NCBI GenBank assembly: GCA_031269535.1
Contig: JAISZA010000033.1
Location: 1 to 32,898 of the forward strand
Origin: Tannerellaceae bacterium
Lineage (GTDB): Bacteria; Bacteroidota; Bacteroidia; Bacteroidales; Tannerellaceae
Length of the DNA stretch: 32,898 bases
Reading direction: 5' to 3'
Shown here piece after piece: positions 20,391 through 32,569 of the stretch (positions within the stretch are counted from its first letter, which is position 1; every line of letters begins with the position of its first letter). The notes below the pieces were generated by a model, which was not told where the DNA came from, made no database searches, and was given only the letters and a program-made list of their open reading frames with translations. The translations under genes were made by a program, and so were the position numbers.

Positions 20391-20718
20391 TCGACCCGGG
20401 GGAAAAGCCGCCGGAAATTGTCGGCAGATAATTTCCCGGGGGGGAAAAGCCGCCGGAAGTTGTCGGCAGAAAATTTCCCGGGGGGGAAAGCTGCCGGAAG
20501 TTGTCGGCAGAAAATTTCCCGGGGGGGAAAGCTGCCGGAAATTGTCGGCAGATAATTTCCCGGGGGGGAAAGCTGCCGGAAGTTGTCGGCAGAAAAATCC
20601 CCGGGGGGGAAAGCTGCCGGAAGTTGTCGGCAGATAATTTCCCGGGGGGGGAAAGCTGCCGGAAGTTGTCGGCAGAAAATTTCCCGGGGGGGGAAAGCTG
20701 CCGAAAGTTGCCGGCAGC
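20391..20718. repeat. GC-rich 41-42-bp tandem repeat array, about seven units
   Basis: Units begin with CCGGAA at 20411, 20453, 20494, 20535, 20576, 20617 and 20659. A degraded eighth starts at 20701 and a half unit lies before the first. The spacings are 42, 41, 41, 41, 41, 42 and 42. Each unit holds two inverted repeats, GCCGGAAGTTGTCGGC and TTTCCCGGG(n)GAAA. Unit-to-unit changes are few: GATAAT versus GAAAAT, GCCG versus GCTG, and the length of the G-run. It fills the 357-base gap between hutH and the convergent MFS gene. Open frames read through it on both strands, but they only reflect the repeat. It may serve as a bidirectional transcription barrier; function is not known. Confidence 0.92.
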
Positions 20719-20747: not shown

Positions 20748-22130
20748 TTACTGAAGCATGGTTTCTATTTCTTCCAGAGAACGGCCGCTCGTCTCGGGCA
20801 GTAATTTCCAGGTGATGAGAAGATAGGGAATACACATAAGCCCGAATAACCAGAATACACCGAAGGGAGCCAGATGGGCAAGCAGCCAAGGCGTTAACTG
20901 CCCGATCAGATACGTGCCTATCCACAGGGATAAACCGGCAGCCGACATGGCGGCCCCCCGTATTTTCGCAGGATACATCTCCGACAACAATACAAAAATG
21001 ACGGTGCAAACCGAGATGGCACAGAAAAAGATGTAAAGACCAATCAAGGCCAGCAGCAATTCAGGCAACAGGGAATACCATGACTGCAGGAGAAAATACA
21101 AACCAATCAGAGCCAACGTAACAATCATCCCCGAAACACCTGAATAGATCAGCTTCTTCCGGCCTATCCGGTCGATCAGCCACATGCCTAAGACTGTGGA
21201 AACGACATTGATCGCGCCTATAACAATCTGGAAGTCGAGCGAACTGTCTCTGCCCAATCCGGCCTGCTCAAAAAAGACCGGGCCGTAATACAGCACAGCG
21301 TTCACTCCCATAAACTGTCCCAGCATGGCCAGACTAATGCCGATAAATAAAGCCTTACGGAATCCGGGTTGCCAGAGCAGGCGCCAGTTGGTCTTCACTT
21401 CCGAGCGGAGTAATTCCTTTATTTCTGCGATTTGCCTGGATGCAGCTTCTTTGCCGAACAAACGGTTCATGACAAGGCTTGCTTTAGTCTCCTGTAAATG
21501 GACAATCTGCCAGCGTGGACTTTCCGGGATAAAGAATAAGACCATAAAAAACAAGAAAGCCGGCAAAGCCCCGACACCTAACATAGCCCGCCAGTATTCG
21601 CCGACAAAAACAGTCTGCAACCATGCTACGGGCAAGGAGGGAGCCGATAAGGCATATTTAAGCAAGGCAGCATTGACTAAATAGGAACTCAAGATACCGA
21701 CAGTAATGGCAAACTGATATAAAGCAACCAATCGCCCGCGATAACGGGCTGTGGATATCTCTGAAATATAGAGCGGCGATACGATGGAGGCGACCCCTAT
21801 GCCGATTCCACCGGCAATCCTGTAAATCACCAGCTCGGTCTCACTGCCCGACAACATGCAGCCTATTGCCGACAAAGAAAATAAGACTGCGGAAAGAAAC
21901 AAGACCGGTTTGCGCCCCAGGGCATCACTCAGCCAACCGGCAAACACGACACCGATAACCGACCCCATCAGCGCACAGCCCACATACCAGCCGGTCTGCA
22001 GCTCATCCAGCCCAAACTGAGCCGATACACTCCGGATGGTACCGGATATGACAGCCGTATCATAGCCGAAAAGAAAACCTCCCAGTGCGGCCACCACAGA
22101 CAGGAAGATTATGTATGCAAAAGACTTCAT
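20748..22130 (-). CDS. Sugar-porter-family MFS transporter
   Basis: A 460-residue inner-membrane protein with 12 predicted helices. The ATG at 22130 is used; a TTG two codons earlier is also in frame. Sugar-porter signatures are clear: GGFLFGYDTAVISGT near the N-terminus (helix 1), GWLSDALGRKP in loop 2-3, RYRGRLVALYQ in loop 4-5, PESPRW in the central loop, DRIGRKKL in loop 8-9, and the C-terminal PETSGRSLEEIE. Members import hexoses, pentoses or related polyols with protons. It is the last gene of the minus-strand ROK-AGE-SusCD-DUF4434 locus, 11 bases after the second DUF4434 gene. Its likely role is importing the monosaccharide released in the periplasm. The exact sugar cannot be told from the sequence. 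Confidence 0.92.
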   Translation of the reverse strand: MKSFAYIIFLSVVAALGGFLFGYDTAVISGTIRSVSAQFGLDELQTGWYVGCALMGSVIGVVFAGWLSDALGRKPVLFLSAVLFSLSAIGCMLSGSETELVIYRIAGGIGIGVASIVSPLYISEISTARYRGRLVALYQFAITVGILSSYLVNAALLKYALSAPSLPVAWLQTVFVGEYWRAMLGVGALPAFLFFMVLFFIPESPRWQIVHLQETKASLVMNRLFGKEAASRQIAEIKELLRSEVKTNWRLLWQPGFRKALFIGISLAMLGQFMGVNAVLYYGPVFFEQAGLGRDSSLDFQIVIGAINVVSTVLGMWLIDRIGRKKLIYSGVSGMIVTLALIGLYFLLQSWYSLLPELLLALIGLYIFFCAISVCTVIFVLLSEMYPAKIRGAAMSAAGLSLWIGTYLIGQLTPWLLAHLAPFGVFWLFGLMCIPYLLITWKLLPETSGRSLEEIETMLQ

Positions 22131-22141
22131 TGCCAATCGGA

Positions 22142-23224
22142 TTATCGGATATTGAAATAATCTTTATACCGGTTATATAAATTACCTGCCTGTAAATAAC
22201 CCGACTGAGGGCTCATGAAATGAGAGAACTCAAAAGTGATGGCTTTGCTGTAGCCCGCCCGCTGGGCCGCTTCGAGCTTCATACGCAGCTTATCAAATTT
22301 GATGGGCAGGAATTTGATGGGCATATCCCGGTCGAATGATTCGGCATTTGTCCAGCATTGCAGACCGTATTTATCGGCCAGTTTCTTGTTGACTTCAAAG
22401 AAAGCATCCAGCTCATCATACTCAATATGACCATCCTGAAAAGCGCAGGCGTCAATGGCGCCGCTTACGCCCTCAAAGATTTCGCTCCATTCACGCTCGT
22501 GTTCCTCTACCGATACAGCCTCCGCCTTTGACAACTGTCCGGATGCCGCCATCACTGCTTTCTTGCCGTCTATCCAGGGTGAGATAAGTGTCGGCAATCC
22601 ATCCGACACGTCCTTACATTGCCGGCCCATCGCGCGGAAAGCTTCCACAGCGCCTTTGGTTTTCCGGCTGATTTCGGTACTTATGTACCAGCCTCCAAAA
22701 CTCTGGTGATGCCCATACTGATTCCAGACTTCTTCTATCACATATTTATTGTCTTCTATCTCCCAGGTCAGATCGCCGGTATCCCAGTACCTGCCGGAAT
22801 CGTATAATCCGAACCAGAGCCGGATGCCATGCTTCGCGGCCAATTGCAGGAACATCTCCAGTAAGTCCACAGACGGTTTATAGCATCCGTACTTCTTCAT
22901 TAAATAGGCAGAAGGATAGGTAATGAACTTGCGGTATCCCGAACGAATCATGATAACCGTGTCGATACCAATTGCTTTCATGTATCCGAAATCCCGATCC
23001 CATTCCGTCCGGCTCCAGTTCTGATGAGGGATATCATGAGATATCTCATCCAGGAAAGTCCCGGTAATTTTCAAGCCTTGTCCACGGGGAACAATCCATG
23101 TATCCGGCTCCGGCGTGGAGCCGGCAAGGGGTTTCTCACGGGTATCCGTACTGCAACCCGCCAATGGAGAGACGCCCGCAAGTGTGGCAAGCGCCGTTAT
23201 TTTCTTCAAAAAATCTCTACGCAT
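22142..23224 (-). CDS. DUF4434 protein B, Tat-type lipoprotein, putative TIM-barrel glycosidase
   Basis: A 360-residue exported protein whose signal combines a twin-arginine motif (RRDFLK, residues 2-7) with a lipobox LAGC (Cys24), so a membrane-anchored Tat lipoprotein is predicted. The mature part looks like DUF4434, a TIM-barrel family of unproven activity: GTFLDE (55-60), a strand ending in IRSGY, LWFGLYDSGRYW, GWYISTE (178-184), LISPW, AFQD (261-264), WTNAE (291-295) and a final TFEFSHFMSP. The same ordered motifs occur in the second DUF4434 gene of this locus with low overall identity, so the two are diverged paralogues. Glu184 and Glu295 are candidate catalytic acids. It lies 17 bases after the phosphoesterase gene. 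Glycosidase activity is inferred. Confidence 0.75.
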   Translation of the reverse strand: MRRDFLKKITALATLAGVSPLAGCSTDTREKPLAGSTPEPDTWIVPRGQGLKITGTFLDEISHDIPHQNWSRTEWDRDFGYMKAIGIDTVIMIRSGYRKFITYPSAYLMKKYGCYKPSVDLLEMFLQLAAKHGIRLWFGLYDSGRYWDTGDLTWEIEDNKYVIEEVWNQYGHHQSFGGWYISTEISRKTKGAVEAFRAMGRQCKDVSDGLPTLISPWIDGKKAVMAASGQLSKAEAVSVEEHEREWSEIFEGVSGAIDACAFQDGHIEYDELDAFFEVNKKLADKYGLQCWTNAESFDRDMPIKFLPIKFDKLRMKLEAAQRAGYSKAITFEFSHFMSPQSGYLQAGNLYNRYKDYFNIR

Positions 23225-23241
23225 AAATATTTATCATTTTT

Positions 23242-24078
23242 TTATTCTTCCAATGATACAAAATCCCATGAAAAATGATGGTCCGGATACATGGTAAGTA
23301 AGCGAAAACCTGCCGGATGGTCGTCGAAATTCACACTGGTTGTTTCAGCATTCAATATCGCCATACCACTGCCATAATAACGCTCTGCAGTCGTATGGAT
23401 ATGTCCTGCTAACCAGATGATCACTCCGTTGTCTTCACATAATCGGAGTATTTCGTAGCGAACAGCCTTTGGTAAATTAAAATACGCTTCTTTTTCATCA
23501 ACGGATGAGACGAAAGGCGGGATATGGGTCAGCAAAATAACAGCTAAGCCTTTCTTTCTTGCTTCCTGCAGAGCGTCACGAAGTTTTTGATCCTGTTGCC
23601 GGCATTCTTCATCCGGCGCTTTTCGCCATAGTTGCGAGTTAGCAGAAATGATACATCGGCCGGCATATTCATGTACTGTGAAATCCTGGCCAAAGACCGA
23701 GCGGTAACGCTTCAATCCATCTAAAGTAACAGGATCAGGCAAATCGTGATTACCGGGAGTCAGAATGACTGGCGTACGAATTTTTGCTATTAGTTTCGAA
23801 ATCGTTGCAACAGCATATTCGTCATTTATGTCATTCACCATATCTCCGGCAATAAGAGTCACGTCCGGCGATAATTCGTTTACCCGACGGATGGCTTGTT
23901 CAAAGCGTGCCGAATCGGCAGAAAAACTATCCTCGTAAAACCCTAATTGGGGGTCGCATAAATGGGCGATGACCAAGGGTTTTTCCGCTCCCTGCCCGTA
24001 GAGCTTTGCCCAACCAGCGAAAGCAAACGCGGTAAACAGGCACAGACAGCTCATATAGGTACGGCTTTCTTTATTCAT
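23242..24078 (-). CDS. Secreted calcineurin-like metallophosphoesterase (CPPED1/CSTP1-like)
   Basis: A 278-residue protein with an N-terminal hydrophobic signal (about 9-29), predicted periplasmic. The five metallophosphoesterase motifs are in order: AHLCDPQLG (Asp42), IAGDMVND (Asp79), PGNHD (109-112 core), LLTHIPP (His185) and AGHIH (His225, His227). The first motif is D-P-Q rather than the usual D-x-H, a variant I associate with CPPED1/CSTP1-type phosphatases. Its ATG overlaps the upstream DUF4434 stop (ATGAATAA, 24071-24078), so the two are coupled. Presence inside a sugar-uptake locus suggests that it strips phosphate, or cleaves a phosphodiester, from the incoming ligand. That substrate link is inference. 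Confidence 0.85.
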   Translation of the reverse strand: MNKESRTYMSCLCLFTAFAFAGWAKLYGQGAEKPLVIAHLCDPQLGFYEDSFSADSARFEQAIRRVNELSPDVTLIAGDMVNDINDEYAVATISKLIAKIRTPVILTPGNHDLPDPVTLDGLKRYRSVFGQDFTVHEYAGRCIISANSQLWRKAPDEECRQQDQKLRDALQEARKKGLAVILLTHIPPFVSSVDEKEAYFNLPKAVRYEILRLCEDNGVIIWLAGHIHTTAERYYGSGMAILNAETTSVNFDDHPAGFRLLTMYPDHHFSWDFVSLEE

Positions 24079-25123
24079 GACGGGATGTATTTAGCCAACG
24101 GACATAATCAGTATATAATTTCTCAGAGCTTTCGGGTCCGGCATAAGCCGGCGAACCCGGTTTATTCATCATCCCCTGGTATTGATAGGCTAAAATATGC
24201 TCTACATAAGGCGACACATCGGCTAATTGCTGCAGCACTCTTTCAAACGATGCCGGCAATGCGCCTGTATGATAAACCTCGCCCTCAAATTCGAAGAGTT
24301 CCACGTCTGCCCATAACCTTGACCTGCCGGCTTTCGTATGCATCTTATATAAGTCCTCAAAATACTTACCGGCCTCTCCCACTTTTGTTTTCTGCACGCC
24401 TATCTCATCCTGATAAGCGATGATGTCGATATCCAATTGTTCTAACTGACGGATATAGCGATCATCCTGCCGGACATATTGCGTGCCGTAAGGAGCAATC
24501 AGCGTAACGGCATCAGGCATTAAGGCATGTACTTTGCGCGAACATCGGTTGATATAAGTAACTGATAAGTCGTCAAAGACCTGATGAAGCTGGGATTCAT
24601 TGGGATAGTACCAGCCATAAAAGCTCTTATGATGTGCATATTTCTCAGCGGTTTCTTCCATGCCTTTTTCGCGTATATACCAGATAGTTTCTTCTTCCAT
24701 TGCTTTTTCTACCTTTCTCCAGTCTGCCCAATAATCATTGCTGACGAAAAACTTTATGCCACATTCGTCAGCTGCTGAGAGAACAGCTTCCAGGGGGTCC
24801 TGGCATACAAAATCATGCCTTGGTTGTAAGGCTGAAGGATAATATGTTTTCCCTTCGTATGCCACGGAAAGCAGCACGAGATATTCCATACCTATCTCAT
24901 GCATCTCGAAGATTTTTGCTCTCCACTGTTCCGTTGTAAATCCGGGCAGCGCCTGATTCCAATACTTTGCGCCCACTTGGTTATGGTGTTCAAATTCGAA
25001 CCAGGAGCCTACAATCGGTTTAATGTAAGAAGGGTGTGCCTGCCGGTTGGCAGACACACAGGATACAGCAGGCAGCCCCGCAGCTAACGCTGCTGATGTC
25101 AGAAAGCGACGACGATCCATCAT
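24071..25123 (-). CDS. DUF4434 protein A, Tat-type lipoprotein, putative TIM-barrel glycosidase
   Basis: A 350-residue exported protein. The start at 25123 (MMDRRRFL; 25120 is equally possible) follows the susD stop by 4 bases; an 80-codon longer frame inside susD is rejected. The signal has a twin-arginine motif (RRRFL) and a possible lipobox AVSC (Cys22). DUF4434-type barrel motifs are GSWFEFE (39-45), LLSVAYEGKTYYPS, FFVSNDYW, GWYYPNE (170-176), LIAPYG, AYQD (236-239), WADVE (271-275) and ILAYQYQ. The NE ending of GWYYPNE (Glu176) resembles the strand-4 acid/base of clan GH-A hydrolases, and Glu275 would sit like a strand-7 nucleophile. This is an inference from motif order. Sandwiched between susD and the phosphoesterase, it is probably a core enzyme of the locus. 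Confidence 0.75.
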   Translation of the reverse strand: MMDRRRFLTSAALAAGLPAVSCVSANRQAHPSYIKPIVGSWFEFEHHNQVGAKYWNQALPGFTTEQWRAKIFEMHEIGMEYLVLLSVAYEGKTYYPSALQPRHDFVCQDPLEAVLSAADECGIKFFVSNDYWADWRKVEKAMEEETIWYIREKGMEETAEKYAHHKSFYGWYYPNESQLHQVFDDLSVTYINRCSRKVHALMPDAVTLIAPYGTQYVRQDDRYIRQLEQLDIDIIAYQDEIGVQKTKVGEAGKYFEDLYKMHTKAGRSRLWADVELFEFEGEVYHTGALPASFERVLQQLADVSPYVEHILAYQYQGMMNKPGSPAYAGPESSEKLYTDYVRWLNTSRHE

Positions 25124-25127
25124 ATGC

Positions 25128-26690
25128 TTATTTATATCTTCCCGTATCCCACCAGACACGTACATGCTGCCCATCTCCTTTTCCTCCGTTGAGAGCCGGA
25201 TTTTTTGCATTCTCAGCATTCGACTCCAGTTCTTTATTGACATACCTGAGTTTTTTGATAAATTCTCCGGCAGCTGCGTTGATCGACGGGTCGTCGCTAC
25301 GAACAACGGGAGTGAGCCTGGGGTAACCCGTACGTCTGACTTCAGCCCATCCTTCCGTTCCATTTGGGAATAAAGAAATCCATTTCTGCGTGATGATCTT
25401 TTCTAATTTGGTTTCGAAATCATCCGCCTCTTTCCACTGTACGTTTCCGGTACGGATATAGACCTCGTCGTTTGCTGTGGAATAAATATCCGGACTGACA
25501 TCCAATCTGGCTTCATTGAATGATGCACGAATCCCGTTCTCATAATTTGCCTGAGCGCTCCCTGCGTTTGTCCATCCCCTGACGGCAGCTTCCGCCTTCA
25601 GGAAACATACTTCCGAATAAGACATGATATCAAAGAGATAGGCCTGGGTGAACGAAGTCGGTTTAATATGCTCGGAATTCCAGGTAGGCGCCCATAACAA
25701 TCCCCACGGATTGGACGCCGAATTATAATCAGGAAGCTGGTCACTGGGCAGTCCGTTCGGGATTCCTTTAATATCAGGTGTCCCCTCCTGAATAGATTGC
25801 ACCGTGACTCCCCAGCGGCATTCCATCCGTGGGTCGGGAACGGTACTCCAGGTTTTCAATACTTTTTCCAGCGTAGCGCTCATCCGGAATTCGTTCCAGT
25901 TGGATATAACGAATAAGGGATGTCCGTCATTCACGGTTGCCGTGACTGTATAGGCTTTATCATCCATACTTCCCATTAATGCAGAAGCTAAGGCTGCTTC
26001 GCCTTCCTGCTTGGCTTTCTCCGGATCGGCAAAAGAGATACGCAAAGCAAAGCGTAACCGGAGCGAATTGCCGAACTTTATCCATTTCTCTACATTCCCC
26101 CCATAGTAGATATCCGATGCCCCGTACTTTTTCTGTTCAACAGCAAAGCCTTTGCTCAAGGCTGTTGTTGCCTCTTTCAGTTCATTCAGGATATCGTAAT
26201 AAATCTCTTTCTGTGCATCATATTTGGGTTTATCCATCCCTCTCCCGGCTTCACTATAAGGAATATCGCCGAAAATATCGGTTGTACGCGCCAGACTCAA
26301 TGCTGCGACAATCCTGGCTATATGATACATCTCTTCGTACTCGGGATAGGTCTCCGCCATGCTTTTAATATCCAGAATATCTTTCAGGACATACGTATAA
26401 TAGGGATTCCAGAAAGCCGATGTTACCCAACCGTCGTTATACTCATACCGGTCTGAATTAAAATAAGAAATGCTGTTGCTTATCCATTGACAATACAAAT
26501 TGGCAAACAGGTTTTCTCCTCGTTGATAATTGAATGCTTCGGAATTGATCGTTTCGCGTTGCATTTTAGGCAAAAGCAGAGCAGGATTTACCTCCGTAAT
26601 CGTATTCGGATTCTTATTCATTTCATCGAAATCACCTGTACACCCTGCCATAAGCATAAGCATTCCGTATAAAAACAATATCTTTTTCAT
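25128..26690 (-). CDS. SusD/RagB-family nutrient-binding outer-membrane lipoprotein (SusD-like_2 type)
   Basis: A 520-residue lipoprotein with signal MKKILFLYGMLMLMAGC (Cys17). The mature N-terminus GDFDEMNKNPNTITEVNPALLLP is characteristic of the SusD-like_2 subgroup. Other family features are NLYCQWISN, the helical segment IARIVAALSLARTTDIFGDIPYSEA, the repeated SNWNEFRMS region, SEVCFLKAEAAVRGW, and the C-terminal EKIITQKWISLFPNGTEGWAEVRRTGYPRL. It begins 13 bases after the susC stop and is followed within 5 bases by the first DUF4434 gene. It would form the surface lid for the neighbouring SusC. The ligand is unknown; this subgroup is not restricted to polysaccharide loci. Confidence 0.93.
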   Translation of the reverse strand: MKKILFLYGMLMLMAGCTGDFDEMNKNPNTITEVNPALLLPKMQRETINSEAFNYQRGENLFANLYCQWISNSISYFNSDRYEYNDGWVTSAFWNPYYTYVLKDILDIKSMAETYPEYEEMYHIARIVAALSLARTTDIFGDIPYSEAGRGMDKPKYDAQKEIYYDILNELKEATTALSKGFAVEQKKYGASDIYYGGNVEKWIKFGNSLRLRFALRISFADPEKAKQEGEAALASALMGSMDDKAYTVTATVNDGHPLFVISNWNEFRMSATLEKVLKTWSTVPDPRMECRWGVTVQSIQEGTPDIKGIPNGLPSDQLPDYNSASNPWGLLWAPTWNSEHIKPTSFTQAYLFDIMSYSEVCFLKAEAAVRGWTNAGSAQANYENGIRASFNEARLDVSPDIYSTANDEVYIRTGNVQWKEADDFETKLEKIITQKWISLFPNGTEGWAEVRRTGYPRLTPVVRSDDPSINAAAGEFIKKLRYVNKELESNAENAKNPALNGGKGDGQHVRVWWDTGRYK

Positions 26691-26703: not shown

Positions 26704-29700
26704 TTAGAATGTTAGACTGATATTAAAACCGATATTCCGGGTAGAAGGGAGCGAGTTTTGTTCAAACCCCTGCGCCCAGTCCGAACGGGTAGAAGCTCCT
26801 TCGGGGTCTGTTCCCGGAGTTTCTTTCAGGAAATAGAACAAATCTCTTCCCACCAGAGAAAGTCCTGCCTTTTTGATATACTTTGTTTTCTGCAACCATT
26901 GAGCAGGCAGCTGATACGCCAGAGACAGTTCTCTCAATTTCACATACGTGCCGCTATACAGGAATGTTTCGCCTATACCGGTTGCTGATCCTCCGACAGC
27001 CTGCCAATATTGCTGGGCGGTGATTTGTTTGGTATTCGCCTGCCCCGTTGAGGCTACAATTCCATCAACAACCATCCCATCCCGGCCCTCTAACGTACGG
27101 GCGCCGGTGCCCGAAGCTGATGCAATCGCATCGGTAACAGAAATAAGGTCGCCTCCATAACGGACATCAACCAGGGCATTCAGTATGAAATTTTTGTATT
27201 GTAAGCGGTTGGTAACCGAACCTGTCCACTTGGGAGATATATTCCCGATTGTTTCGTATTCGCTCGATTTAATCGGTATGCCGTTATCATCCACCAGTAT
27301 GTTCCCCTTATCGTCTTTCATAAAAACGCGGCTGCGGATATCGCCATACTTTCCTCCATCCTCAACCACAACTTCTCCGATGCGCATGGAACCTAATACA
27401 TGCCTGGGGATGGATTCATAGAGTTCGACACATTCGCTCCGGTTGCTGCCGTAATTCAGATTCAAATCCCATCTCAGCGTTTTAGTCTCCACCGGAGTCG
27501 TATTCAACATGATTTCCAAGCCTGAACTATTCATTTTTCCGGCATTGATATACCTGCTGACATATCCGCTGGAAGAAGGAACAGCTAAAGAGAGAATCTG
27601 ATTGATGGTATGGGAGCGGTACCAGGTAAAATCAAGACCGATTCTGTTCCGGAACATTCTGAAATCAAACCCGAATTCCACCGACGTGGTCTGTTCCGGC
27701 TTCAGGTCGTTGAATGATTTAACCGTACCTATATCTGCAAATCGTACATTGCCGTTGATCAATCCAAGCTCATACGAGGCCAGTGTCCGGTAGGGATCGG
27801 TATCATTACCGACCTGCGCCCAGGAGCCTCTCAGTTTCAGAAACGTCACCTGCGCAGGCAGGGAAAGCATATCCGAAAGAATCCCGCTCAGACTGACCGA
27901 TGGATAAAAATAAGACCGGTTCTGAGAGGGCAATGCCGACGACCAGTCGTTTCTCGCCGTGACGTCTAAGTATAAATAATTATTGTAGCCCAGCTGGAAA
28001 TTTCCCAATACAGAATGTATTTCCTTCTCCGTTGAATAATCGGAGGCATCTATGCTGGAGCCGTTTGACAGACGATTGAATCCATATAGAATCAGCGGGC
28101 CGGAGGACGCATTGATTCCGTCGGATTTCAGGTTCATCACAGCTGCACCGATATTGGATACAACCGAAAACGCATTCAGTGTCTTATTGATATTCAACAT
28201 GGCATCGGCATTGGTTTCTTTGATGTTCCCGATCGAACGGTAATAGTCCGGATTAATCAGATTGGAGCCTTTTAAACCATACGAGAAGTTATTATTCTGC
28301 ACATTATCCTGTCCGATTTTTGCCGTAACTCCCAACCAATCCGTAAACCGGTAGTTTGCGGTTAAAACAGCGATCAGGCGGTTTCGTTTCTGATTCGTCT
28401 CTTTTTTATCCGTAATATAATTGTATGGATTTATATATTCATTACTCGGGCCGCTCCAGTTCATCGGCACATCATCAATTGTCATATTGTCTTTCAGGTC
28501 TTCCGTGCGGATATTCGAGGGCATTTTGTTAAACATCTGCATCATACCATATTCTCCCAGGCCGACAGGGTTTAAAAGGGTTTGCGTGCTATAGGTAGCT
28601 TTCAGGTTGACCGTCAGCCGGCTGTACTTATAATTCGTATTCATATCAAAATACTGCCTTTCCACCGTATTGCCCACAGTTATGCCCTGATTCCTCGAAT
28701 CGGTAAAAGAGAAGCGGGAAGCCAGGTTTTTACCACCTCCTTCGATAGATACGGTATTGCTGGTATTAAAGCCGGTCCGGAAGAAGTCTTTTATCCTATT
28801 CTTTTGCGGAGTCATCGCATAATCGGCAACATCTTTTCCGTAAAAATGATTTCGCCAGTTCGGGATCATTTGCCCGGTCATCTCCGGGCCCCAGCTGTCT
28901 AAGGCAGATATACTGAACTCTCCGTTATTCCCCTGGCCATATACCCATTGGTAATCATATCCTCCATATATTTCACTCCAACTGAAGTTGCTGTTATAGG
29001 TGACACTCATCGGTTGTTCCTGACCGGCGCTTTTGGTAGTGATTACAATAACGCCGTTCTGTGCCCGCGAGCCATACAAAGCGGCTGCGTTAGGCCCTTT
29101 CAATACGGAGATACCGGCAATATCATCGGGGTTTATTTCAGAAGCTGTTCCCGCAGCGTCCGAGCCTCCCCATTGATAAAAATCGGCGGATGAATCATCC
29201 CTGATGGGAATACCATCTACCACCCATAAAGGCTGGTTATTTCCTGTCAATGAATTCATCCCCCGCATAATGACGCGCGTAGAGCCATTTATTCCGGTAG
29301 CCGACTGGCTGATTTGCACACCGGCCACTTTCCCTTGCAACATATTGGCTACGCTTTCCCTTTTTACATCCAGCAGGTTATCGGTTTTTACTTCCTGCAT
29401 GGCATATCCAAGGGCTTTTTTCTCTCTTTTCATCCCCAGGGCTGTAACGACCACTTCGTCTATTTCCGTAAAACGTTCCGGTAATATCACATTAATCTCA
29501 CGCTGGTTGCCAACGACTACTTCTTTCGTTGAATAACCGATGAGTGAAAATACCAAAACCGCATTGTCATCGGAAATACGAATCGTATAATTACCATTTA
29601 TGTCTGTTACAGCTCCCTGTGTTGTTCCTTTAATAACCACATTAACACCCGGCAGAGGAAAGCCTCCCTCATCTGCGACACTCCCTTTTACTGTTTTTTC

Positions 29701-29838
29701 CTGTAAAACAGCTATGGGATTGTTGCTTTCAGCTTTTAATCCGCGGATATCAACATACATGGCGCCAACAATAAATAATGCCGTCAGCCAATACCGGCTA
29801 AGCAGCAGTGTTCTTTTGTATTCCTTTCTAAGGTCCAT
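26704..29838 (-). CDS. SusC/RagA-family TonB-dependent outer-membrane transporter (no STN domain)
   Basis: A 1044-residue TonB-linked outer-membrane protein. After the signal segment (about 12-36) comes a carboxypeptidase-regulatory-like domain (about 48-120; KGSVADEGGFPLPGVNVVIK, TDINGNYTI). The plug follows (from about 125; EVVVTALGMKREKKALGYA, VANMLQGKVAGVQI, PLWVVDGIPI, LYGSRAQNGVIVITTK), and then the barrel ending in RNIGFNISLTF. It has no STN domain, in contrast to the SusC at 7893, which agrees with the absence of a sigma/anti-sigma pair here and with control by the ROK regulator or another system. It starts 76 bases after the epimerase stop. Confidence 0.94.
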   Translation of the reverse strand: MDLRKEYKRTLLLSRYWLTALFIVGAMYVDIRGLKAESNNPIAVLQEKTVKGSVADEGGFPLPGVNVVIKGTTQGAVTDINGNYTIRISDDNAVLVFSLIGYSTKEVVVGNQREINVILPERFTEIDEVVVTALGMKREKKALGYAMQEVKTDNLLDVKRESVANMLQGKVAGVQISQSATGINGSTRVIMRGMNSLTGNNQPLWVVDGIPIRDDSSADFYQWGGSDAAGTASEINPDDIAGISVLKGPNAAALYGSRAQNGVIVITTKSAGQEQPMSVTYNSNFSWSEIYGGYDYQWVYGQGNNGEFSISALDSWGPEMTGQMIPNWRNHFYGKDVADYAMTPQKNRIKDFFRTGFNTSNTVSIEGGGKNLASRFSFTDSRNQGITVGNTVERQYFDMNTNYKYSRLTVNLKATYSTQTLLNPVGLGEYGMMQMFNKMPSNIRTEDLKDNMTIDDVPMNWSGPSNEYINPYNYITDKKETNQKRNRLIAVLTANYRFTDWLGVTAKIGQDNVQNNNFSYGLKGSNLINPDYYRSIGNIKETNADAMLNINKTLNAFSVVSNIGAAVMNLKSDGINASSGPLILYGFNRLSNGSSIDASDYSTEKEIHSVLGNFQLGYNNYLYLDVTARNDWSSALPSQNRSYFYPSVSLSGILSDMLSLPAQVTFLKLRGSWAQVGNDTDPYRTLASYELGLINGNVRFADIGTVKSFNDLKPEQTTSVEFGFDFRMFRNRIGLDFTWYRSHTINQILSLAVPSSSGYVSRYINAGKMNSSGLEIMLNTTPVETKTLRWDLNLNYGSNRSECVELYESIPRHVLGSMRIGEVVVEDGGKYGDIRSRVFMKDDKGNILVDDNGIPIKSSEYETIGNISPKWTGSVTNRLQYKNFILNALVDVRYGGDLISVTDAIASASGTGARTLEGRDGMVVDGIVASTGQANTKQITAQQYWQAVGGSATGIGETFLYSGTYVKLRELSLAYQLPAQWLQKTKYIKKAGLSLVGRDLFYFLKETPGTDPEGASTRSDWAQGFEQNSLPSTRNIGFNISLTF

Positions 29839-29914: not shown

Positions 29915-31081
29915 TTAATCATCACATTTCTCTAATAGTTTCCAGCACTGATACAAAGCTCTCGGCACATGGAAACAGCCTTTCCATTTTCCTCCTTTCA
30001 AAGGGAGCAAGACCTCTCCCTGCCTGTTGAGATAACCAAACCATTCCGGATATTCCGGGTCTTTGAAATGCGACCAGGTATAATGATGTAATTTCTCAAA
30101 CCACTCCAGGCATTGCCGGTTTCCTGTGCACCGATATCCTTTCAGCATACCGATCAAAGCCTCTGCATGAACCCACCATAATTTCTGATCCCACTCCAAT
30201 TGCTGAGGAGGATAGCCACAACGATCCAGATAATAAAAAATACCTCCATACTTTTCGTCCCATCCATAATTAATCATCTTCAATGAGATATCAACCGATT
30301 TCTCTATCAATTCCGGACGGTTCAGGCGTAGCCCCAGATCCATAATAAACCACATGGCCTCAATGGCATGCCCGGGATTGAGCAGACGGCCTTCAAACGA
30401 ATCGGAGAGTTGCCCGTCTTTCGTTACATTCTCGACGATCAACCCGATTTCCGGGCGCCAGAAAACATCCAGTATTTCGTGTAAACAGGTTTCAATAGTA
30501 CGGTCTAATACTTCTTTATTCAGCAAGGGCTCGATATCCAGCGAGAGATTGCACAGGATCATGGGCAGGGCAAAGTTCTTCAGATCGCGTGTCCCCGGAA
30601 TCGCTTTATTCCATTGCGCTTTGGGGTTTCCAAACCGGAGAAGAATCGCATCGTATGTTTTCCTTGCCACATCGGCATAGACCGGATTCCCTGTTGCTAT
30701 GCTCAACTGCCCGAATGCCATGGCCGCAAACGTATATGAAAAGATATTGTATGGCGCAATCAAAGGCTTGCCTTCCCGATTTAATGAGAAAAACCAGTTA
30801 TAGCAACCATCATGCCCATACGTATTCAGGAACTCAGCGCCCTGAATGGCACAATCCAACCATTCCTTCCGCTTCTCTACCTGATTATATAGGTATGCAA
30901 AAAACCAGACCTGACGTCCTTGTAACCAGATAAATTTATCTGTATCAAACACGGTTCCATCCCGGTTCAGACAAGTAAAATAACCTCCATACTGCGTATC
31001 CTGCGATTTGTCTAACCAGAAAGGGATAACCTGATGGAGTAATTCACTTCTATAGACTTCCGCTAACTTTGCACTGTTCAT
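29915..31081 (-). CDS. AGE-family sugar 2-epimerase (N-acylglucosamine 2-epimerase-like)
   Basis: A 388-residue cytoplasmic (alpha/alpha)6-barrel enzyme without a signal peptide. The family active-site set is visible: Arg56 in WLQGRQVW, His238 and Glu241 in LNPGHAIEA, His305 and Glu307 in WWVHAEA, and His371 in CFHVPRALYQCW. AGE enzymes interconvert the C2 epimers of hexoses or N-acetylhexosamines (GlcNAc/ManNAc), while relatives act on cellobiose, mannose or mannosyl-glucose. The sequence reads most like the GlcNAc 2-epimerase (renin-binding-protein) branch, but I cannot exclude a mannose or disaccharide epimerase. It lies between the ROK regulator and susC, with its own -7 box. It would act on the sugar delivered by the MFS porter. 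Confidence 0.88.
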   Translation of the reverse strand: MNSAKLAEVYRSELLHQVIPFWLDKSQDTQYGGYFTCLNRDGTVFDTDKFIWLQGRQVWFFAYLYNQVEKRKEWLDCAIQGAEFLNTYGHDGCYNWFFSLNREGKPLIAPYNIFSYTFAAMAFGQLSIATGNPVYADVARKTYDAILLRFGNPKAQWNKAIPGTRDLKNFALPMILCNLSLDIEPLLNKEVLDRTIETCLHEILDVFWRPEIGLIVENVTKDGQLSDSFEGRLLNPGHAIEAMWFIMDLGLRLNRPELIEKSVDISLKMINYGWDEKYGGIFYYLDRCGYPPQQLEWDQKLWWVHAEALIGMLKGYRCTGNRQCLEWFEKLHHYTWSHFKDPEYPEWFGYLNRQGEVLLPLKGGKWKGCFHVPRALYQCWKLLEKCDD

Positions 31082-31237: not shown

Positions 31238-32443
31238 TTAAAGAAGCCCCAGTATTTTACTACGAGAAAGTAAACATGCACCTATCAATCCGGCGCGTTC
31301 GCCTAATTTGGAAATGACTAAGTCGGTATCTTGATTGACTAAGTTCAATGAATATTTTTTCATAGCGCTCTTTATGGGCAGGCGGATATAATCCTGTGTG
31401 CGCGAAAGCGGGCCTCCGATTATGACAAGCTCGGGGTTGAAGATATTAATCATTCCGGCAAGCCATCTTCCCAGGTTAAGTCCCATATACTCCACAATCT
31501 CGATAGCGAGTACATCTTCTTTCAAGACAGCATCCACAAATTCGGAGAGTGAAACCTCCCCTTTCTCGACAATCAGTTCGGAGAGAATGGTCGTACTGCC
31601 CTGTCTGCAACGTTCCACCAGCAGGCGCTGCATAGCAAACCCGGAGGCTTCGGTTTCAATACATCCTTTCTTCCCACATCCGCAAATCACTTCATTGTCA
31701 AACGCACAGATATGCCCGAACTCACCGGAATAACCGGATTTACCATAATACAATTTTCCGTCCAGAATCAATCCGGCTCCCAATCCCCAATTCAAATTGA
31801 CAAAAAGTATATGTTTTTCGCCTTTAACTATTCCGGCCATATATTCCCCATACGCCATGGCGCGTGAATCGTTCTCCAGCGTTATCGGGACACCGGTCTT
31901 TTCTTCAATGATCTGAGAGAGGGGACGTTCGCCGAAGTAAAAGAAGCTATGCGAATAGCCCGAAGAAGTGCTAATACGACCGCTGAGACTGACGCCTGCC
32001 TGAAGAATCTTTTCCCTGGCTACCGGAAGGTTATCAATATATTCATTGATAATTGCGCAAAGGCTGTCTAAAGATTCCTGCGTATTCGCCAGTACATAAT
32101 CGGCGCTGTAGTCTTCATCTAATTTCCTGCCGTTGAAATCAATTGTGCCAAGCATCACCTTTTTCCGGCTCACATCTACCCCTACAAAATAACCAGCTTC
32201 AGGATTTATACCATACACATTGGGGCGTCGCCCTCCATTGGAGTTCTGCTTGCCGAAATCGGAGACAAATCCTTCTTCAAGTAAATCAATCACCAGCTTG
32301 GTTACTGTAGGAACACTCATTTCGATCTCTTTGCTGATATCAGCAATAGACGATTCTCCTGCAAGAATCAGATATTGAATGATTTTCTTTTTCAATATCG
32401 TATTCTTACTGCTCTTATCCGATAATAAAAAACTTGCTCTCAT
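31238..32443 (-). CDS. ROK-family transcriptional regulator (NagC/XylR-like)
   Basis: A 401-residue protein with an N-terminal winged HTH (IIQYLILAGESSIADISKEIEMSVPTVTKLV, given here as a region at about residues 20-52) and a ROK sugar-binding domain starting near GYFVGVDVSRKK. The ROK domain carries the zinc motif CGCGKKGCIE with GEFGHI upstream, ENDSRAMAYGE, and NWGLGAGLI. The start at 32443 (MRASFLLSDK) is preferred over an ATG 18 codons upstream because a TAAATTTG -7 box falls inside the longer version's first codons. ROK regulators usually repress sugar genes until their sugar ligand binds. The gene precedes the AGE epimerase on the same strand, so it probably controls this locus and possibly itself. 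Confidence 0.9.
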   Translation of the reverse strand: MRASFLLSDKSSKNTILKKKIIQYLILAGESSIADISKEIEMSVPTVTKLVIDLLEEGFVSDFGKQNSNGGRRPNVYGINPEAGYFVGVDVSRKKVMLGTIDFNGRKLDEDYSADYVLANTQESLDSLCAIINEYIDNLPVAREKILQAGVSLSGRISTSSGYSHSFFYFGERPLSQIIEEKTGVPITLENDSRAMAYGEYMAGIVKGEKHILFVNLNWGLGAGLILDGKLYYGKSGYSGEFGHICAFDNEVICGCGKKGCIETEASGFAMQRLLVERCRQGSTTILSELIVEKGEVSLSEFVDAVLKEDVLAIEIVEYMGLNLGRWLAGMINIFNPELVIIGGPLSRTQDYIRLPIKSAMKKYSLNLVNQDTDLVISKLGERAGLIGACLLSRSKILGLL

Positions 32444-32484
32444 GGTGCGCCAAGATTGATAAAATAATTTAATAAATCCAATGA

Positions 32485-32492
32485 CAAATTTA
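32485..32492 (-). promoter_or_regulatory. -7 element upstream of the ROK gene
   Basis: Reads TAAATTTG on the minus strand, matching TAnnTTTG, 41 bases upstream of the preferred ROK start. This position argues against the longer start at 32497. Confidence 0.45.
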
Positions 32493-32569
32493 AACATTTT
32501 TTTTTATCCGCCACAGTCTTCCCCCAAACAGGGTGAATTTCCCTTTTCCCGTATGTTTAGCCATGCAAG

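Follow-up and report, generated by a model that had tools for sequence, protein, structure and literature searches.

The closest described relative of the proteins considered here is BT_0435 of Bacteroides thetaiotaomicron (PDB 4H41), a structural-genomics entry that its depositors titled "putative alpha-L-fucosidase." Further points of comparison are the beta-galactosidases of glycoside hydrolase (GH) family 42 and the GH164 beta-mannosidase Bs164, in which the catalytic Glu160 and Glu297 lie on strands 4 and 7 and Asn159 precedes the acid/base (PMC7105311). Here we discuss two proteins, A and B, of the uncharacterised family DUF4434, encoded on contig JAISZA010000033.1 (assembly GCA_031269535.1) of a Tannerellaceae bacterium; the window is the whole stretch analyzed, positions 1 to 32,898 (32,898 nucleotides). 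B is approximately 80% identical to BT_0435 (76% when the two are aligned by structure), with E184 and E295 of B corresponding to SEQRES positions 165 and 275 of 4H41, and relatives adjoin the same major facilitator superfamily (MFS), N-acyl-D-glucosamine 2-epimerase (AGE) and ROK genes as are found in the operon of A and B. It is probable (we put it at roughly 0.82) that both A and B are exported enzymes, namely retaining glycosidases of the GH-A type.

Both proteins match the DUF4434 profile PF14488, for which the curated cut-off is 30 bits, A with 193.9 bits (profile positions 2-281 of 283) and B with 285.2 bits (1-281), and they share 23% identity over 340 columns (BLASTP, E 2e-10), so their description as diverged DUF4434 paralogues in an earlier, sequence-only reading of this DNA was borne out. 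That reading had named three acids in each protein, Glu176, Asp239 and Glu275 in A and Glu184, Asp264 and Glu295 in B, and the open reading frames, residues and codons all proved to be as given. The first acid of A does stand in the motif PNE, with Thr183 of B in the place of Asn175, and the third follows the first by 99 residues in A, in keeping with the spacing of about 100 that had been pointed out, and by 111 in B.

Relatives were gathered from whole genomes and from GTDB contigs, giving a family alignment of 145 sequences. The glutamates E176/E184 and E275/E295 (numbering of A/B) are identical in 145/145, which excludes free variation at either position, and no other among the 49 acidic residues of A is invariant. 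D239/D264 is present in 142 of the 145, the remaining three having gaps and none a substitution. A further glutamate, E157/E165, is likewise kept in 142/145, and the only other invariant positions are Y172 and F277. The statement that exactly these acids had been retained therefore holds for the two glutamates and is, as a whole, slightly too strong.

AlphaFold2 models of A and B (mean predicted local distance difference test score 90.1 and 83.6, respectively) are eight-stranded TIM barrels, (beta/alpha)8, with low confidence at the N-terminal signal regions of both and in a loop near residues 221-240 of B. Strands 4, 6 and 7 span residues 168-172, 234-238 and 269-275 in A, and 176-181, 259-263 and 289-294 in B; E275 is the final residue of its strand 7 and E295 the first residue past it. 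In the models each of the three motif acids thus lies at the C-terminal end of its strand (4, 6 or 7), and the structure prediction agrees with the proposed arrangement of the glutamates, one following strand 4 and the other ending strand 7. The top match to both models in VIA-align was 4H41 (Z 31.6 for A and 46.6 for B), below which came GH164, GH5, GH2, GH42 and Cwp19 with Z of approximately 18-21 over 243-280 residues; almost all of the structural matches below 4H41 are TIM-barrel glycosidases, mostly of clan GH-A. Bs164 (6T5O), a clan GH-A TIM barrel like the two models, gave a Z of about 20 to both, and the GH42 beta-galactosidases, which have the same fold, a Z of about 18-19. Bs164 differs in carrying extra domains and a GH42-like insertion, and no overall sequence family link between it and DUF4434 was seen; its Asn159 has a counterpart in A but lacks one in B.

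The strand-4 glutamate can be followed outside the family. When the DUF4434 profile was aligned with GH42 using HHalign (probability 95.9, E 5e-9), the GWYYPNE of A fell on the GWQVDNE of GH42, and B aligned in the same register (profile-profile, E 8e-9); this homology covers strands 2-4, including the acid/base motif. With GH5 the NE motif fell in the same register, in a match of low probability (E 7e-4). Among the control TIM-barrel families, GHL10 (4e-5) and AP_endonuc_2 (9e-5) were weakly similar, and this only along the early strands, the remaining neighboring control families gave an E of 0.0028 or worse, and by profile alignment GH27 and most other neighboring families had no homology to DUF4434. 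A profile search of PDB sequences independently placed the same Glu on the NE of a GH2 beta-glucuronidase and of GH42 beta-galactosidases, with marginal E-values; a direct sequence search of PDB with A returned no match. At the level of sequence profiles, E176/E184 is shown to be homologous to the acid/base glutamate of GH42. Membership of GH42 itself is another matter, as neither A nor B matched PF02449 at an E of 0.5.

In the mechanism that we propose, the general acid/base would be E176/E184, and E275/E295 would be the nucleophile of a double displacement with a covalent glycosyl-enzyme intermediate, while D239/D264 may position the substrate or tune the nucleophile. Of the claim that these acids are placed like the catalytic residues of clan GH-A, the part concerning the acid/base stands, by its place at strand 4, its invariance and the GH42 alignment; the nucleophile has its place at strand 7 and its invariance in its favor and is not confirmed by sequence. 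The profile alignment of the C-terminal half with GH42 or GH5 was unusable, and the alignments to GH5 made with global HHalign were meaningless, which is why we assign the nucleophile by strand position and invariance; the GH42 enzymes have insertions and extra domains, and their C-terminal half cannot be aligned to A or B by sequence. This gap weighs against our reading, as do three further points: no activity is known for any DUF4434 member; the B-type proteins lack the Asn normally found before the GH-A acid/base; and literature searches yielded no paper naming DUF4434 or PF14488, none on BT_0435 and only unrelated matches for 4H41, whose label is thus without a supporting paper. An Asn before the strand-4 Glu is common in clan GH-A and does not define it.

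Much the same pocket could also house a different chemistry, inverting or directed at a non-classical bond (as in a transglycosylase, a lyase or an enzyme acting on a phosphodiester-linked glycoside), with D239/D264 catalytic. That D239/D264 is never substituted would suit this, as would the rank of Cwp19, which we take to be a lytic transglycosylase, as the best structural match of B after 4H41 (Z 21.2), the Z of about 18 between A and both the inverting GH156 and the PgaB barrel, and the B-type proteins with their extra strand-8 Glu and no Asn. We nevertheless regard it as distinctly unlikely, since the only invariant acids are the strand-4 and strand-7 glutamates, matching the retaining GH-A layout, and the former is homologous to the GH42 acid/base.

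The reading of A and B as alpha-L-fucosidases, which follows the title of 4H41 and probably automatic annotations, is very improbable. In GH29 fucosidases the nucleophile is an Asp at strand 4, but the sole invariant acid after strand 4 in DUF4434 is a Glu in GH-A register, and the residue-level homology of the family is with GH42 and GH2. A fucosidase profile does match weakly (E 0.005), over strands 1-2 only; in the Foldseek list for A, GH29 chains rank well after 4H41 and the top GH-A enzymes, with lower TM-scores, and they appear in neither of the two VIA-align lists of 50 for A and B. We judge the label to be wrong, and nothing found here supports it for BT_0435. Just as improbable is a role as binding or scaffold proteins with a GH fold and no catalysis, for although no member has a reported activity, a catalytic pair strictly kept across several phyla while the rest has diverged to approximately 23% identity would be unusual for a dead barrel. 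Retaining glycosidases of the GH-A type remain our preferred reading of both proteins.

The tree separates an A-type clade (n=82, support 0.85) from a B-type clade (n=38, support 1.0), and by this phylogeny A and B are members of two ancient subfamilies, not recent duplicates. Fixed differences lie around the predicted pocket. The residue before the acid/base (175) is Asn in 76/82 A-type and 0/38 B-type sequences; the B-type residues there include 19 Gly, 14 Gln and 3 Thr. At position 273 (N293 in B) every A-type protein has Asp and every B-type protein Asn, and at position 314, at strand 8 (E332 in B), Gln is fixed in the former and Glu in the latter (counts in Table 1). Acid/amide swaps fixed at or near catalytic positions favor two working enzymes with different substrates over a working and a decayed copy, and from N175 to G/Q/T, D273 to N293 and Q314 to E332 we would expect different linkages or sugars. 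These comparisons support a difference in specificity between the A- and B-type proteins, as had been suggested from the two sequences, and the six DUF4434 genes that form one cluster on a Bacteroides timonensis contig are in line with it. DUF4434 is widespread in Bacteroidota and occurs also in Acidobacteria, Bacillota and others, with copy numbers that reach six or more per genome. The E. coli control genome gave an apparent DUF4434 match above the cut-off, for which the corresponding gene was not located on search.

A and B are the fifth and seventh of eight genes that run on one strand from 32497 down to 20748, with intergenic gaps of no more than 156 bases, in the order ROK, AGE, SusC, SusD, A, phosphoesterase, B, sugar porter (Table 1). 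With its SusC/SusD pair, adjacent predicted exported glycan enzymes, regulator and single direction of transcription, the operon has the make-up of a polysaccharide utilisation locus. Twin-arginine signals with a lipobox-like cysteine suggest that A and B are exported, and a TatC gene is present in the source genome. SusC and SusD would take up the glycan, which A, B and the phosphoesterase would trim; the sugar porter would then import the freed sugar, AGE would epimerise the released amino sugar, and the ROK protein would be the sensor. Beyond the operon, the sugar porter gene (-) and a histidine-ammonia-lyase-like gene (+) converge, and the intergenic DNA between them contains 7.7 copies of a 41-base unit (20398-20717), whose core has no other match in the genome when up to 2 mismatches are allowed.

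Table 1. Genes of the operon and motif residues of the two DUF4434 proteins (window positions)
Feature	Position	Strand	Remarks
ROK-family regulator with winged helix (NagC/Mlc-like)	31238-32497	-	
N-acyl-D-glucosamine 2-epimerase (AGE)	29915-31081	-	NCBIfam equivalog cut-off exceeded
SusC-like TonB-dependent transporter	26704-29838	-	
SusD-like outer-membrane lipoprotein	25128-26690	-	
DUF4434 protein A, A-type, 350 aa	24071-25123	-	Twin-Arg signal and lipobox-like Cys; predicted exported
A Asn175	24599-24601	-	Precedes Glu176
A Glu176, predicted acid/base	24596-24598	-	Directly after strand 4, in PNE
A Asp239, predicted pocket acid	24407-24409	-	Directly after strand 6
A Glu275, predicted nucleophile	24299-24301	-	Strand 7 end
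Calcineurin-like metallophosphoesterase, secreted	23242-24078	-	Between A and B; 8-base overlap with the end of A
DUF4434 protein B, B-type, 360 aa	22142-23224	-	Lipoprotein-like; predicted exported
B Glu184, predicted acid/base	22673-22675	-	After strand 4; residue before it is Thr183 instead of Asn
B Asp264	22433-22435	-	Directly after strand 6
B Glu295, predicted nucleophile	22340-22342	-	Immediately after strand 7
B Glu332	22229-22231	-	Directly after strand 8 (327-330); Glu 38/38 B-type, Gln 82/82 A-type
Sugar porter family MFS transporter	20748-22136	-	Last gene of the operon

In loci of B-type relatives, a sugar porter directly adjoins the DUF4434 gene in 24/31, and within six genes there is an FAD-dependent oxidoreductase in 18/31, AGE in 11/31 and ROK in 8/31. 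The oxidoreductase (PF12831) occurs near B-type DUF4434 in, for example, loci L081 (11534-13285), L054 and L060, and is not part of the operon in this window. The order in Bacteroides finegoldii is ROK, DUF4434-B, sugar porter, AGE, a hypothetical gene, SusC, SusD, then DUF5018 and DUF4855, followed by alpha-N-acetylglucosaminidase, GH3 and SGNH hydrolase. Proteins of 710-750 amino acids without a clear Pfam family, some of them recurrent, were also seen beside DUF4434 (L117:5464-7620, L112:9139-11382 and L195:19715-21853).

A new finding is that some DUF4434 domains of other Bacteroidetes are flanked, within one fusion protein, by a metallophosphoesterase domain and a glycerophosphodiester phosphodiesterase (GDPD) domain. 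Such Metallophos-DUF4434-GDPD fusions occur as single open frames in three genomes (L126:10492-13458, with 989 aa, L129:10489-13428 and L141:2479-5433), and there are partial fusions of DUF4434-GDPD (L127:10521-12629) and of Metallophos-DUF4434 (L107:10024-12192). The fused DUF4434 barrels keep the catalytic motifs, and L126, L127, L129 and L141 also contain AGE and/or homologues of the sugar porter that are 56-59% identical to the one in the window. Other loci have phosphoesterase, GDPD or NAGPA genes as separate neighbors of DUF4434, like the phosphoesterase gene here. One NAGPA-type phosphodiester glycosidase gene was noted near an A-type DUF4434 at L083:5119-6513, with homologues next to A-type genes in L085 and L087, all of them loci from metagenome-assembled genomes. 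In a count that used domain ranges and seeds free of fusion proteins, 15/108 DUF4434 loci and 0/40 control windows of the same phylum had a gene or domain of the phosphoesterase, GDPD or phosphodiester-glycosidase type (Fisher p 0.007), a contrast that is overstated because the controls are mostly non-glycan loci and several of the loci are related.

Given the association with phosphodiesterases together with AGE, the most economical guess for the substrate is a phosphodiester-containing amino-sugar glycan, and from the fusions and the operon it is perhaps teichoic-acid-like. Wall teichoic acid of Gram-positive bacteria has N-acetylmannosamine-beta-1,4-N-acetylglucosamine (ManNAc-beta-1,4-GlcNAc) as its linkage unit, and GlpQ, a GDPD, and PhoD of Bacillus subtilis are teichoic-acid phosphodiesterases (PMC7086022). 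In broad type, the GDPD and metallophosphoesterase domains of these enzymes match the ones that accompany DUF4434 in related loci, as fusion partners or as neighbors; GlpQ and PhoD are, however, without a glycosidase barrel, and the parallel concerns a possible substrate and serves as a lead only. The teichoic-acid linkage unit is one candidate substrate, from which A or B might free ManNAc for AGE to convert to GlcNAc. A broader view, that DUF4434 could be a new clan GH-A family partnering phosphodiesterases on phosphodiester-linked amino-sugar glycans (with A or B, for instance, removing beta-N-acetylmannosamine), is speculative and to our mind unlikely. A glycosylphosphatidylinositol-anchor or inositol-glycan substrate was also considered, with AP_endonuc_2, Gfo/Idh and PfkB genes near DUF4434 in its favor; against it, the alpha-mannosidases to be expected with such a substrate were not seen among the annotated neighbors, which makes it less likely.

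With 4H41 there is already a crystal structure of a DUF4434 member, filed under an ill-fitting label. A named catalytic pair and two subfamilies make this family of no known function directly testable, and the phosphoesterase and GDPD fusions hint at glycans of a kind that may serve Bacteroidetes as food and that is without an assigned glycosidase.

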